Shown here: positions 1 through 8,990 of the stretch, in pieces | Numbering within the stretch: the first letter of the stretch is position 1 | Layout: every line of letters begins with the position of its first letter | DNA from: Candidatus Gastranaerophilales bacterium | GTDB lineage: Bacteria > Cyanobacteriota > Vampirovibrionia > Gastranaerophilales > Gastranaerophilaceae | Assembly (NCBI GenBank): GCA_944325115.1 | Contig: CALUYX010000004.1 | Span: 1-38,330 of the forward strand | Direction: 5' to 3' | DNA length: 38,330 nucleotides | Made by a program: the position numbers and the translations under genes | The notes under the pieces: generated by a model | Database searches by the model: none | Told to the model about the DNA's origin: nothing | Seen by the model: only the letters and a program-made list of their open reading frames with translations

Positions 1-474
1 GCTATTGTACTTATAGGGCTTTCTATGATTTTAACTTTCTATACTATGTCACCTGTTTTTGACCAGATGGTAAAAGCGGGACAACCTGCATATAAAAACG
101 GAAACCTTGTAATGTGCATACAAGAGGGTTCTAAACCTTTGAAAGAATTTATGCTAAAACAAACACGCCAGAGCGATTTGGCATTTTTTGTGGAGAAAAC
201 AAGGAAACAACCGCCTGCGACACCGGATGAGCTGACACTGTGGGAGGTAGCGCCCGCTTATATAATAAGCGAGTTAAAAACCGCTTTTGAAATAGGTTTT
301 ATAATATTCATACCTTTTATTGTCCTTGACCTTGTTGTGGCAAACATTCTTCTTGCACTTGGTATGTTTATGTTATCACCGACAATTATCTCACTTCCCT
401 TTAAACTGCTTATATTTATCGCAGTTGACGGGTGGAGTCTTATTGTCAAAGGACTTGTGGAGAGCTTTAACTGA
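1..474 (+). CDS. fliP: FliP, flagellar export apparatus membrane protein (5' partial)
   Basis: The reading frame is open to base 1, so the gene starts outside the window and about 157 C-terminal residues are seen. FliP with FliQ and FliR forms the export gate of the flagellar type III secretion system in the inner membrane. Seen here: the KPLKEFMLKQTRQSDLAFF segment of the FliP periplasmic region, then AYIISELKTAFEIGFIIFIP and the closing membrane helices with LPFKLLIFIAVDGW, all hallmarks of the FliP C-terminus. The stop TGA shares its A with the fliQ start (TGATG), so the two are probably translationally coupled. A type III secretion homologue (SctR) is the only alternative; the fliQ and fliR neighbours do not separate the two systems, but FliP is the closer match. 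Confidence 0.95.
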   Translation, partial: AIVLIGLSMILTFYTMSPVFDQMVKAGQPAYKNGNLVMCIQEGSKPLKEFMLKQTRQSDLAFFVEKTRKQPPATPDELTLWEVAPAYIISELKTAFEIGFIIFIPFIVLDLVVANILLALGMFMLSPTIISLPFKLLIFIAVDGWSLIVKGLVESFN

Positions 475-965
475 TGGAAATAATGGTAGAATATCTTGCA
501 AAAGGTTTTATGGTGATGCTTATGGTATCACTGCCTTGTGTTCTTGTTGCAGCGGGCATTGGTCTTGTTGTAGGTATCTTGCAAGCAGTAACTCAAGTAC
601 AAGAACAAACTATAGCAGCCGCACCAAAAATTCTTTTGGTGTTTTTAACAATTGTAATCCTTGGCATGTGGTATATTAAGATACTGACAGAATTTGTAAT
701 CGAGGGTACGGCTATAGCCTTTAACGTAGTTCCTAAAAACGATGAATATGTACTTGATTCAAACTACTACAAATACACCCGTCCTTTTACAAATGAAATG
801 TATGACAAAGTTGACGGTTCACAAAAAGACTTAAATGAAATAATGAAAAACCCCGGAAAGCTTCCTTGGGTCGATAAAGCAGAAAAGAATCTTTACGGTC
901 CGACAAGAAGAGGAGCAAATCCGACACCTAATTTCATAGAAAGAAATAAAATCATGGGGAGGTAG
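474..965 (+). CDS. fliQ: FliQ with a long hydrophilic C-terminal extension
   Basis: FliQ is a small two-helix subunit of the flagellar export gate. Residues 1-85 are recognisably FliQ: two hydrophobic helices around the GLVVGILQAVTQVQEQTI segment, with the usual conserved Q-x-Q-E-Q-T core. The family is normally about 90 residues, but this protein is 163. Residues from about 85 to 163 form a charged, Tyr/Asn/Pro-rich tail without hydrophobic segments. The tail is in frame with no sign of a frameshift, and the next gene's ribosome binding site (GGGGAGG) lies within its last codons. The tail has no counterpart I recognise. The start overlaps the fliP stop by one base. Confidence 0.93.
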   Translation: MEIMVEYLAKGFMVMLMVSLPCVLVAAGIGLVVGILQAVTQVQEQTIAAAPKILLVFLTIVILGMWYIKILTEFVIEGTAIAFNVVPKNDEYVLDSNYYKYTRPFTNEMYDKVDGSQKDLNEIMKNPGKLPWVDKAEKNLYGPTRRGANPTPNFIERNKIMGR

Positions 966-970
966 ATGAA

Positions 971-1354
971 ATGAAAAAGATATTAGCTACACTTGGAATC
1001 CTTTTACTTGCAAGCTCAACTCAAGCATATGAAATTGACGCAAACAGCATATTTCGTCAAGGCAACAGCGTTGGGCTAAGACCTTATGCAAGATACACTT
1101 TAAGTTGTCCTTCAATAATTGAAAACGTAAATCTTGGCGACAGAAGCAACTTGAGATTTTTCTTTATGGACAACGAACCCTTTGAACAAGGAAAAAGAGC
1201 AGCAAGCACCCTTGTTATAAGAACATTTAATACATCAAACTCATCTTTTGAAGTATTTACACAAGACGGTAACTCAACTTCCATAAACTATACAATTGAT
1301 AACAACAACAAAAAAATGGGCGCAATAGTTGGTAACTGCAGAATAGAACCCTAA
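971..1354 (+). CDS. Exported small protein of unknown function between fliQ and fliR
   Basis: A 127-residue protein with a clear N-terminal signal peptide: Lys-Lys, a hydrophobic core around ILATLGILLLASS, and a probable cleavage after TQA near residue 19. The mature part is about 108 residues, polar and Asn/Ser/Thr/Phe-rich. It has two cysteines (in LSCPS and GNCRIEP) that could form a disulfide, and a pattern suggesting beta structure. The ribosome binding site GGGGAGG lies at the end of fliQ. Its place inside the fliP-fliQ-fliR cluster, five bases before fliR, suggests a periplasmic role linked to export or the flagellar basal body. That is inference; I recognise no family. Confidence 0.8.
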   Translation: MKKILATLGILLLASSTQAYEIDANSIFRQGNSVGLRPYARYTLSCPSIIENVNLGDRSNLRFFFMDNEPFEQGKRAASTLVIRTFNTSNSSFEVFTQDGNSTSINYTIDNNNKKMGAIVGNCRIEP

Positions 1355-1359
1355 AAACC

Positions 1360-2139
1360 ATGGATTTATTTTTAGCACAATTTGCAAAACTTTTCCCTGA
1401 GCTTAATCTTGCATTAGGCGCAGGGATAATGGTTTTCAGCCGTTTGCTTGGAATGATGCAGTTTGCTCCGCCCTTTAACAGAAAAGAAGTGCCCTCTATG
1501 GTAAGGCTTTCACTTGCGCTCATCGTAACTGTTATTGTTACTATGCTTATAAAACCGCAGAGCATACCTCCAAACACTTCCATTTTGCTTGCGATACTGC
1601 TAAACTACGCTTTTGGTGCAATACTTGGCTACATTGCAAACTGCATACTTGCGGCAATAAGTGCCGGAGGCGATATGATTAATATGCAGATGGGTCTTTC
1701 TTCCGCTATGGTCTTAGACCCGACAACACGTTCTCAAACGTCAATTCTTGGTAACTATTTTACGATTTTAGGGTTGATTATTTTTATCAGCGCAGGGGGT
1801 ACTTATTGGCTGATAAACGCTTTTATAAGGAGTTTTGACGTATTTGGAATTTACCAAACAATAATGCCCTTATCTCAGGTTATAAACCCCGATTACCTTG
1901 TTTTACTTACATCAAATGTTCTCTACTTTGGTATGCAGCTTGCAGCACCTGTTTTGCTGGCAACTTTAGGACAGGATATAATCCTTGGTATTATTTCAAA
2001 AACAGCCCCGCAAGTAAACGTATTTCAATTGAGCTTCCTTTTTAAACCCATTATGGGCGCACTGATTTTAATTTGGATTTTACCTATGTTAATAAACGTC
2101 ATTACTGATTATATGACCTCATATGCAAACATTTTCTAA
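1360..2139 (+). CDS. fliR: FliR, flagellar export apparatus membrane protein
   Basis: FliR is the third core subunit of the flagellar export gate. The 259-residue length is normal for the family. It shows the N-terminal helix with FSRLLGMMQFAPPFN followed by KEVPSMVRLSLALIV, matching the FliR pattern of a Pro-rich turn then an R-x-x-LA helix. The GDMINMQMGLSSAMVLDP motif is the FliR signature (G-x-x-I-d-x-q-x-G-l-x-x-a-x-x-x-dP). Several further membrane helices follow, ending before residue 259. The ribosome binding site is weak (the upstream sequence is A-rich), consistent with coupling to the gene ending five bases before. No flhB follows; about 80 bases of AT-rich sequence come next. Confidence 0.95.
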   Translation: MDLFLAQFAKLFPELNLALGAGIMVFSRLLGMMQFAPPFNRKEVPSMVRLSLALIVTVIVTMLIKPQSIPPNTSILLAILLNYAFGAILGYIANCILAAISAGGDMINMQMGLSSAMVLDPTTRSQTSILGNYFTILGLIIFISAGGTYWLINAFIRSFDVFGIYQTIMPLSQVINPDYLVLLTSNVLYFGMQLAAPVLLATLGQDIILGIISKTAPQVNVFQLSFLFKPIMGALILIWILPMLINVITDYMTSYANIF

Positions 2140-6157: not shown

Positions 6158-7549
6158 ATGGACTTTAAACAAGCAATAGATTATACAAATAAATTTCATA
6201 TTTTACTAAGGAAAATCAACTCCGAAGGCACATCGCTTCCGGGGAAATATTTGAGGAAATTTTATCCTGATTTTTTGAGCGAATCACAAAACTACGTAAC
6301 GGGACAAAAATTTGCCATAACGGGCACTAACGGAAAAACAACAACCGCAGGCATCTTGGCGCAAATTTTAAAAGAAGCGCAAAAAACCATCATCCACAAC
6401 GAACTCGGCGCTAATATGCCAAATGGCATTGCAACGGCAATTGCAGTGGGGCTTTATCGCAACTTTAAAGACAACGGCGAAGACGCCTCAGTTGATAATT
6501 TTATAATTGAATCCGACGAAGCATATTTAAGAGAAATTTTTGAAAATATAATTTTTGATTACTTGCTTGTAACAAATTTATTCCGTGACCAATTGGACAG
6601 ATACGGAGAATTAGACATAACCAAAAAGAAGATTCAAGAAGGAATAAGGATTAACCCGAATCTGAAATTAATAATAAACGCAGATGACCCGAGTTTATAT
6701 GATATTGAAAAAAATATCGCAAATGACATGATTGCAAGCAGAAAAAAAAGAAAAGTTTACTACTTTGGTTTTGAAAATGTAGAGTTCTGCGACTTTGACT
6801 CAAAATCAAACAGCCCGAGCGAAGTTATATACTGCCCGATTTGCAAAAATCCTCTTAAATACTCTAAAAGGTTCTACTCTCAACTCGGTCTTTGGAGCTG
6901 TGATTGCAGAGTAAAAAGACCCCGTCCGGATGTTTGTGCGGAAGTTAAAGTATTTAGAAATTACTCCATTTTAAATGTCAAATTTGAAGGCAAAAGCATT
7001 ATGTACAAGCTCAATCTATCAGGGCTTTATAATGCTTACAATGCGCTTGGAGCAATAACTTGCGCTTATGTAGCGGGAATTGACAGAAAAATAATCGCTC
7101 GTGCGCTTGATAACTATAAACCGGTATTTGGCAGAGCACAAAACACCTTAATTAACGGCAGAGAAGTTGCACTTTACCTGATAAAAAACCCGACAGGAGC
7201 GTGCGAAGTTTTAAGAGGCTTAAAAAACATCAAAAACACAAAGCTTATGATTGCAATTAATGATGAATATGCAGATGGCAGAGATGTTTCGTGGCTTTGG
7301 GATGCCGATTTTGAGGTGTTGAAAAACTTTAACAACAAAATATACGTAAGCGGAACACGTGCCGATGATATGGCGCTCAGACTAAAATATGCCGGAGTTA
7401 ATCTGGGGCTGCTTGTAATAGACAATAACATCAAAAAAACTTTTGACTTTGCGCTCAAATCAATGGAGGAAGATGAAAAGCTCATTGTTCTTCCAACTTA
7501 TACGGCACTTTTAAAATTAAACAAAATAATTAAAGATAAAACTAGATAA
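6158..7549 (+). CDS. murT: MurT-type Mur ligase (lipid II isoglutaminyl synthase subunit)
   Basis: MurT works with the glutaminase GatD to amidate the D-Glu of lipid II in peptidoglycan. The order of parts is right: Mur ligase P-loop ITGTNGKTTT (residues 54-63), central domain with ESDEAYL and LFRDQLDRYGE, a Cys-based zinc ribbon inserted in the central domain, and a C-terminal DUF1727 region. In that region NPTGACEVL and YADGRDVSWLWDADFE contain Asp376, which corresponds to the MurT Asp that completes the GatD catalytic triad. The ribbon has C226-x2-C229 and C248-x-C250, so the second pair is spaced C-x-C, where the Staphylococcus and Streptococcus proteins have C-x-x-C. No gatD follows; the next gene is convergent with an eight-base stop overlap. 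Confidence 0.9.
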   Translation: MDFKQAIDYTNKFHILLRKINSEGTSLPGKYLRKFYPDFLSESQNYVTGQKFAITGTNGKTTTAGILAQILKEAQKTIIHNELGANMPNGIATAIAVGLYRNFKDNGEDASVDNFIIESDEAYLREIFENIIFDYLLVTNLFRDQLDRYGELDITKKKIQEGIRINPNLKLIINADDPSLYDIEKNIANDMIASRKKRKVYYFGFENVEFCDFDSKSNSPSEVIYCPICKNPLKYSKRFYSQLGLWSCDCRVKRPRPDVCAEVKVFRNYSILNVKFEGKSIMYKLNLSGLYNAYNALGAITCAYVAGIDRKIIARALDNYKPVFGRAQNTLINGREVALYLIKNPTGACEVLRGLKNIKNTKLMIAINDEYADGRDVSWLWDADFEVLKNFNNKIYVSGTRADDMALRLKYAGVNLGLLVIDNNIKKTFDFALKSMEEDEKLIVLPTYTALLKLNKIIKDKTR

Positions 7550-8990
7550 CACCGAGTATTTTAAGCTCAAACTCGGGAGAAATTTCTTCTAAACATAAAA
7601 CGGGAATGTCCGTATAAATCTGAGAAATAAGCACAAACAAAAGCTGACGCAGATGTTGAGGTGCAACAAGAACGGTTTTTGGCTCAGATAAGATATCCGT
7701 CAATTTCTTTTTAAATTTAGAAAACTTGCTGCCGTCAATTTTTACAACTCCGCCTGATTCTTCTTCAGAGTTATCCTCAAGCAGGTTAATAAGTTCTTGA
7801 GATACTTCATAACCAAAAATCTGCTTTTGCTCATTAGCATATGAATTACAAATTTGACGAGAAAGCGCAACTCTTAACTTGTCCAACAAATCCGATTTAG
7901 TGGATTCGTCTGAAAAATCGTTTATTTTCTCAAAAATAAACACAACATCTTTTACACTTACTCTTTCTCTTATTAAACTGCAGAAGATGTATTTTAGCTC
8001 TGATACCGATATAAAATCTCCCAAAATTGAATCTATAAGGAAAGAATTTTGCTCTGAAACAAGCTCTATATAGCGGTTCATATCACTATAGTTAAAGATT
8101 TCCTGAACATGGCTTATAGCGTAGTATTTAAGGTATTCAACCACATACTCGCAAGGTGTGATGCCTCTTGTCCAAAAGTCTTTGCAGTGCTCTTCTTCTA
8201 TCCAAACGACTTTTCTTCCGGAAAGCTCGTCAAAGGCTTTTATTGTGTTTTTGGGGTATTTATCGATGTTTAGTTCATCTTCAAAAAACATTAAGTGGTT
8301 TGGATACGCACAAGCGCTCACAACAGGAACGGCATGGATTGAAATTGTAAAAACATTTTCATCTAACTCGGGATTCTCAACAAATTGAACTTTTGGAATA
8401 ATATAACCTAATTCCTGAGTCAACTCCTGACGGACCTTTATTGTTTGAGCAAGAAGATTTTGCTCTGAATTAGAGTTGTTAAGACAATAAAGCTCCTCGC
8501 TTAAATTGATGGAAAGTCTTTCTTCGCCAAGGTTTTGAACCATTTTTGAGGGAGAAAGCAGGCTCTTTAATTCTTTTTTTAAGCTGTTTAGTTTGTCTAT
8601 TTCTTTTGAGATTTCCTCGTTTAAAAAATCTCGCTCTTCATCTTTAGCTGTTTCTAGAAATTTTTTAATTTCTTCAATTTTTTCTCGTTTTTCACGAATT
8701 TTCTTTTGAATATTCAGGCAAAGCTCATAGGGCTGCTCTTTTGAATAGAGCATTTTTTCCATTTGAGATTTAAAGCCCAAAATATCTTCAAACTCGCTCT
8801 CGTCATAGAAATTTTCAACCTCACGCATAAAAATGCAATTGTAGACCAATTTTTCACCGGTATCCGATTCATATATGGAATACAAATCCCAGCCCTCTTT
8901 AGACATTGAGTTCAGAGTGTTTTCAAGAAGAGTAATCTCATCGCTCGGGCATACTTTTATGGAAAATTCCTGACGTGTTGGTTTATACAT
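7542..8990 (-). CDS. Soluble FlhA cytoplasmic-domain protein with DUF4177-like N-terminus
   Basis: The 482-residue protein has three parts. Residues 5-57 (with EGWDLYSI and CIFMREVE) resemble the small DUF4177 domain. Residues about 90-145 are a charged coiled coil. Residues about 152-482 match the cytoplasmic part of FlhA, the export-gate protein that binds chaperone-substrate pairs: ELGYIIPKVQFVENPEL (193-209; compare the FlhA GY-x-x-P-x-V-x-x-x-x-N pattern), VVWIEEEHCKDFWTRGITP, YVVEYLKYYAISHVQEIF, SVSELKYIFCSLIRERVSVK, and the end with TVLVAPQHLRQL and IPVLCLEEI. FlhA's eight membrane helices and its FHIPEP motif are absent, and no signal or membrane segment replaces them. The start is supported by a TAAAAT box six bases upstream (leaderless). 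It may be a soluble chaperone-docking protein, a regulator or a decoy for the export gate; the function is not known. Confidence 0.85.
   Translation of the reverse strand: MYKPTRQEFSIKVCPSDEITLLENTLNSMSKEGWDLYSIYESDTGEKLVYNCIFMREVENFYDESEFEDILGFKSQMEKMLYSKEQPYELCLNIQKKIREKREKIEEIKKFLETAKDEERDFLNEEISKEIDKLNSLKKELKSLLSPSKMVQNLGEERLSINLSEELYCLNNSNSEQNLLAQTIKVRQELTQELGYIIPKVQFVENPELDENVFTISIHAVPVVSACAYPNHLMFFEDELNIDKYPKNTIKAFDELSGRKVVWIEEEHCKDFWTRGITPCEYVVEYLKYYAISHVQEIFNYSDMNRYIELVSEQNSFLIDSILGDFISVSELKYIFCSLIRERVSVKDVVFIFEKINDFSDESTKSDLLDKLRVALSRQICNSYANEQKQIFGYEVSQELINLLEDNSEEESGGVVKIDGSKFSKFKKKLTDILSEPKTVLVAPQHLRQLLFVLISQIYTDIPVLCLEEISPEFELKILGVI

Follow-up and report, generated by a model that had tools for sequence, protein, structure and literature searches.

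FlhA and SctV are treated as homo-nonamers, and the cytoplasmic ring of each is part of a membrane protein. What, then, is the role of a gene that encodes the cytoplasmic half of FlhA without the membrane half? Such a gene lies in the window, the whole stretch of 38,330 nucleotides of a Candidatus Gastranaerophilales contig that was analyzed here (Table 1).

Table 1. Features of the soluble FlhA_C-type gene, of the export genes in the window and of related genes at other loci (prefix L).
Feature	Position	Strand	Basis
Soluble FlhA_C-type gene, 482 aa	7542..8990	−	ORF; Pfam FHIPEP 1.3e-45; dN/dS 0.03–0.07 vs. close relatives
Orphan N-terminal domain, aa 1–59, beta-alpha-beta-beta	8814..8990	−	AlphaFold2, alignment
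Linker, aa 60–86, low confidence, then helical hairpin, aa 87–144	8559..8813	−	AlphaFold2
FlhA cytoplasmic domain SD1–SD4, aa 147–482	7545..8552	−	Pfam, phmmer, alignment, Foldseek
SD3, ring-forming subdomain, aa ~313–396	7803..8054	−	37% identity to FlhA2
Equivalent of the Salmonella D456–L461 part of the dimple, aa 254–259	8214..8231	−	Alignment
fliP of the second system, truncated 5' by the contig edge	1..474	+	Pfam FliP 1e-49
fliQ of the second system, 163 aa, long C-terminal extension	474..965	+	Pfam Bac_export_3 over aa 5–75 only
ORF of 127 aa, no family, conserved between fliQ and fliR in relatives	971..1354	+	Profile search, neighbourhood
fliR of the second system	1360..2139	+	Pfam Bac_export_1 1.9e-51
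Extra FlhA_C-derived proteins	L170:5042–6823; L173:5472–7001; L171:5037–5684 and 6804–7520; L174:4851–5501; L175:4567–5424		

A Soluble Protein Carrying the Whole FlhA Cytoplasmic Domain

The Pfam FHIPEP profile (PF00771) matched the 482-aa protein with E = 1.3e-45, aa 130–474 corresponding to positions 321–656 of the 657 in the profile, and phmmer aligned aa 128–482 with B. subtilis FlhA_C (3mix; E = 4.8e-23). The NCBIfam model of FlhA gave 143 bits over aa 129–482 and that of SctV 97 bits; both scores miss the curated equivalog cut-offs (772 and 692 bits, respectively), which is expected since these are set for full-length proteins and the cytoplasmic half alone is present. The AlphaFold2 model, built from an alignment of 50 homologues (mean pLDDT 82), placed FlhA_C 6ch2 at rank 1 in Foldseek (E = 4.8e-22, TM 0.81–0.84 by target length), and the TM values against FlhA_C structures were mostly 0.75–0.84. 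All these searches agree with the sequence-only reading, which had taken the C-terminal ~330 residues for FlhA past its membrane part and had proposed the profile and AlphaFold comparisons as checks. The segments that it quoted are present as GYIIP, SELKYIFCSLIRERVSVKDVV, TVLVAPQHLRQL and IPVLCLEEI at aa 195, 330, 439 and 462, respectively.

Neither the FHIPEP motif nor a membrane helix was found in the 482-aa protein, so the reported loss of both from FlhA was confirmed. Its highest hydropathy over 19 residues is 1.65, compared with 3.26 for FlhA2, a full-length paralogue described below, and does not exceed 1.70 in the homologues, which indicates a soluble protein. Of the features of the FHIPEP family, the N-terminal membrane domain with the FHIPEP loop is missing, and the cytoplasmic homology extends over SD1–SD4 in both profile and fold. 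The GYXLI motif marks the start of SD1 in FlhA (PMC9431611); the alignment, inspected by eye, has SEEL or a similar sequence at this position of the soluble protein. The 482-aa protein is soluble and joins a complete FlhA cytoplasmic domain to a new N-terminus, the similarity being far beyond chance.

The homologues share the invariant residues L22, L26, N27, M29, W34, Y37, C52 and F54 in the N-terminal domain, and the N-terminal part of the protein had no significant match among PDB folds. DUF4177 scored E = 0.015 and 15.9 bits against aa 1–60, below the Pfam gathering threshold of 25, and reached E < 0.01 in 2 of 50 homologues; together with the fold search this lends no support to an ordinary DUF4177 fusion. 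Of the DUF4177-like domain and coiled coil suggested earlier, the new N-terminus stood, the DUF4177 assignment stayed weak and below the cut-off, and the coiled coil is predicted by AlphaFold2 as a hairpin of two helices (aa 87–114 and aa 117–144). The linker in front of it contains a low-confidence helix at about aa 64–81 in the same model. The linker–hairpin stretch was the slowest-evolving part of the protein in the two closest pairs (dN/dS ~0.01).

Distribution, Selection and Gene Neighbourhood

Scanning of genome contigs revealed 80 loci with the soluble protein, among them records of Candidatus Gastranaerophilales and Melainabacteria. Nearly all matched over the entire protein at 39–95% identity, and the length was mostly 481–501 aa. 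In a class-wide sample, 143 of the 144 Gastranaerophilales genomes had a soluble copy with E better than 1e-145, the copy of one of them (G066) being a cut frame of 379 aa. The sole exception was the near-complete G002. No soluble FlhA protein was seen outside the order: the best match in other families of the class (1.9e-68) is at the level of full-length FlhA, and the PF00771 proteins there are of ~700 aa apart from a few short fragments. FlhA2 occurs in related orders without the soluble protein. Presence throughout the order, steady length and a dN/dS of 0.03–0.07 against the nearest relatives demonstrate that the soluble protein is under selection. It is found in flagellated and non-flagellated Gastranaerophilales alike and follows the second export system, not flagella.

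The search for a conserved operon uniting the soluble gene with T3SS genes was negative; the genes usually found next to it are bamA, skp and a nucleoside phosphorylase gene. It follows these three in 43 of the 68 loci with enough flank (e.g., L053:4522–9464) and lies directly downstream of the phosphorylase gene on the same strand in 49 of 80 loci, most gaps being −32 to +14 bp. The window's own genus and several others lack this linkage.

Second Export System and Its FlhA2

The genome of the organism contains three FHIPEP genes, encoding the flagellar FlhA beside fliR–flhB (C43, L001), FlhA2 on C16 (L002/L130) and the soluble copy. The predicted separate membrane FlhA thus exists, in two full-length versions. 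FlhA2 gave 689 bits with the FlhA model and 598 bits with the SctV model, under the respective cut-offs of 772 and 692 bits, so that by the curated rule it is neither FlhA nor SctV. We used the name FlhA2 for full-length proteins outside both equivalogs that are present without flagella; the soluble protein, devoid of the membrane half, falls outside this group.

FHIPEP proteins were detected in 190 of the 191 genomes of the family sample, mostly at least three in genomes with the flagellar type and mostly two in the others. In the 23 genomes examined, flagellar FlhA went along with two sets of FliI, FliP, FliF and, except in the incomplete G000, FlhB; genomes without it had one set. Flagellin was found in all four tested genomes with flagellar FlhA and in none of the 11 tested genomes without it; rod-type proteins persist in genomes without flagellin. 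The second set includes FliE, FliF, FliH, FliO, FliP, FliQ, FliR, FlhB and a FliN/SctQ-like protein, as well as FliK-like and FlgE/F/G-like proteins and one protein that is FliG-like by eye and has no family match.

All Gastranaerophilales tested have this second flagellar-type T3SS, beside a flagellum or without flagellin, and its genes are scattered over several loci (window 1–2139; L130, L132, L135, L136, L139). The fliPQR genes of the window were assigned to it on the basis of their neighbours and of a FliP class matching that of the flagellin-free genomes. The second-system FliQ is about twice as long as its Pfam domain. Behind the gene for the second-system FlhB lies one for a FliA/WhiG-like sigma factor (L135:7459–8136, L139:7830–8492), a candidate regulator. 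In G125 (97% complete), the soluble protein and FlhB2 were detected and FlhA2 was not, probably due to an assembly gap.

Relationship to FlhA2 and Fate of the Subdomains

The maximum-likelihood tree of the cytoplasmic domain comprised the soluble proteins, FlhA2, flagellar FlhA and other FlhAs of the class. The soluble proteins formed one clade (bootstrap 100), which joined FlhA2 and was separated from flagellar FlhA and the other FlhAs (bootstrap 99). The soluble protein is a paralogue of FlhA2; because of long branches, the order of branching inside this group is uncertain, and the soluble clade may be sister to FlhA2 or descended from it. The tree rules out an origin from a truncated flagellar FlhA.

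With approximate subdomain limits, the identity between the soluble protein and FlhA2 was 32% and 27% in the two parts of SD1, 22% in SD2, 37% in SD3 and 16% in SD4; the corresponding values among FlhA2 proteins were 83%, 77%, 55%, 81% and 82%. The soluble protein evolves far faster than FlhA2. Of the 29 positions conserved in both, 13 fall in SD3, which makes up 84 of 339 residues. Circumferential SD3–SD3 and SD3–SD1 contacts hold the nonamer together (PMC8223533). A comparison of FlhA2 with flagellar FlhA, however, likewise has SD3 as the most conserved region. Taken by itself, the retention of SD3 therefore says little, and the signal lies less in a gain of SD3 than in the loss of SD4 and SD2.

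In four genera, we found further, lineage-specific proteins derived from FlhA_C: those of 593 aa and 509 aa carry a new membrane segment, and the others are pieces of 215–285 aa. Their FHIPEP match consists of SD1 and SD3 parts; most have a gap at SD2, and most stop before SD4. The N-terminus of the 593-aa protein resembles the second-system FliG-like protein (E 3e-8). That SD1 and SD3 were kept again would fit a role in ring contacts.

The chaperone-binding dimple was analyzed with the numbering of a 6ai2 alignment. Asp456 of FlhA hydrogen-bonds a tyrosine of the chaperone, and T490 is taken as the fourth dimple residue of Salmonella FlhA, in view of a T490M structure among the fold matches. 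The other residues binding FliS/FliT-type chaperones are D456, F459 and L461 (PMC5932034). In the soluble family, the D456 equivalent (D254) is nearly invariant, the F459 position (aa 257) is Thr or Ser, the L461 position is Lys, Arg, Glu or His, and the T490 position is mostly Arg, Glu or Lys; the flagellar FlhA of the same group retains F, L and T at the latter three. With Asp alone retained, the hydrophobic chaperone dimple is lost in the soluble FlhA family. These replacements do not bear out the idea that a free copy could hold cargo in the manner of membrane FlhA.

Proposed Role and Alternatives

The order-wide presence of a membrane-free copy that keeps the ring piece best suggests a soluble partner of a little-noticed export machine. 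We consider the soluble protein, with a probability of about 0.45, to be an accessory subunit or adaptor of the FlhA2 gate and not a chaperone–cargo dock of the FliS/FliT kind. As a cytosolic paralogue serving the gate of the second T3SS-like machine, it would have arisen from or beside FlhA2 by losing the membrane half and gaining the beta-alpha-beta-beta domain and the helical hairpin. We propose a contact with FlhA2 in which the SD3/SD1 face would pack on its cytoplasmic ring, whether by subunits interspersed in it, by a cap or by a second layer; the N-terminal domain together with the hairpin could be an arm that recruits or regulates another component. The computation shows the fold and family, the paralogy to FlhA2, the conservation and selection and the lost dimple, from which the contact, its stoichiometry, the place in the machine and the role of the N-terminus are inferred. 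The accessory-subunit role draws on the complete FlhA_C fold, the grouping with FlhA2, the near-universal occurrence in the order, the tracking of the second system, the constancy of length, the low dN/dS, the retention of SD3, the extra SD1 and SD3 pieces and the loss of the dimple. Counting against it are the position of the gene outside any T3SS operon, an evolution much faster than that of FlhA2 and unlike that of a strict ring subunit, the related orders with FlhA2 alone, G002 without the soluble protein and G125 without a detectable FlhA2.

The gene position is the main counter-evidence and keeps alive a repurposing of the FlhA_C fold outside export, e.g., in outer-membrane biogenesis or nucleoside metabolism. 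The nucleoside phosphorylase, bamA and skp genes upstream on the same strand in most species, the rapid divergence and the lost dimple would all suit such a role, but the linkage fails in the window's genus and several others, SD3 was preferentially kept, and every checked genome of the lineage carrying the soluble protein has the second T3SS; we regard it as unlikely. Slightly less probable still is a free cytosolic cargo or chaperone platform that collects chaperone–substrate pairs off the membrane or competes with the gate. The complete FlhA_C fold including SD1–SD2 and the nearly invariant D254 speak for it, yet the other dimple positions are polar or charged across the family, and the subdomains bordering the substrate cleft, SD2 and SD4, show the lowest conservation relative to FlhA2; a platform for a different substrate class is still conceivable.

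A spare C-domain able to complement the gate, as reported of HP1575 for FlhB in Helicobacter, has a precedent there in the free C-domain of a different gate subunit (Wand et al. 2006, by its title as cited in PMC3040844), but a backup should keep a functional cleft and resemble FlhA2, whereas identity is just 16–37% by subdomain and the new N-terminus is conserved, so this explanation is very improbable. A decaying pseudogene or annotation artefact could appeal to the shortening relative to FlhA; the ORF, intact across the order, its near-constant length and its dN/dS of 0.03–0.07 refute it almost completely.

The best retention in SD3, the worst in SD4 and the lost dimple together argue against a cargo–chaperone dock and for an accessory subunit contacting the FlhA2 ring. 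Mixed rings remain the best of the three activities considered in the sequence-only reading, the others being cargo holding and competition with the gate, and the tree points to FlhA2, not the flagellar gate, as the probable partner. Going further, we tentatively suggest, as a possibility somewhat less probable than the accessory role itself, that export gates may be hetero-oligomeric, a ring-competent soluble paralogue with a recruiting arm inserting into or stacking on the FlhA2 ring of the flagellin-free machine. If so, the genes of a machine present throughout the order had been mistaken for those of a flagellum or for what was left of one. The soluble paralogue, old and selected, kept the ring subdomain and not the chaperone site; it makes ring building separable from cargo docking, and both can be tested. 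It further flags a second, flagellin-free T3SS-like machine in uncultured bacteria that are common in the gut, for which reason "incomplete flagella" in Gastranaerophilales should be re-read.

Comparison with Known Systems

The soluble protein shares with flagellar FlhA_C the four-subdomain fold, the full domain length, the conserved SD3 and the Asp456 equivalent. It differs from flagellar FlhA in the absence of the membrane half, the FHIPEP motif, the GYXLI motif and the hydrophobic chaperone dimple, and it alone possesses the new N-terminal domain and hairpin. The injectisome gates SctV, CdsV and EscV have the same fold (Foldseek E ~1e-20), but the sequence of the soluble protein is nearer to FlhA (143 vs. 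97 bits) and the membrane part is missing from it. In Chlamydia, the flagellar-type gate proteins FlhA, FliF and FliI likewise occur beside another T3SS; the FlhA there, unlike the soluble protein, has kept its membrane half with seven predicted helices (PMC2830194).

The same group of organisms was studied by Di Rienzi et al. (2013), who listed two flhA in the gene set common to all their Melainabacteria genomes and treated them as flagellar (PMC3787301), and by Soo et al. (2014), who considered that Melainabacteria with a subset of the genes could not make a flagellum (PMC4040986). The soluble family may account for one of these two flhA. The genes were published as flagellar or as incomplete flagella, and we found no description of the soluble architecture or of the coexistence of two systems. 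The open-access literature searched contained no soluble FlhA paralogue and no T3SS of Gastranaerophilales, in line with the earlier remark that no described protein of this plan was known.

HP1575 of Helicobacter is the nearest precedent in concept, a free homologue of the FlhB C-terminal domain described as a spare part (Wand et al. 2006, by its title as cited in PMC3040844). In both cases, a free C-domain copy of an export-gate membrane protein exists next to the full-length one; HP1575 derives from FlhB and not FlhA, whereas the soluble FlhA protein has diverged and carries conserved new domains.
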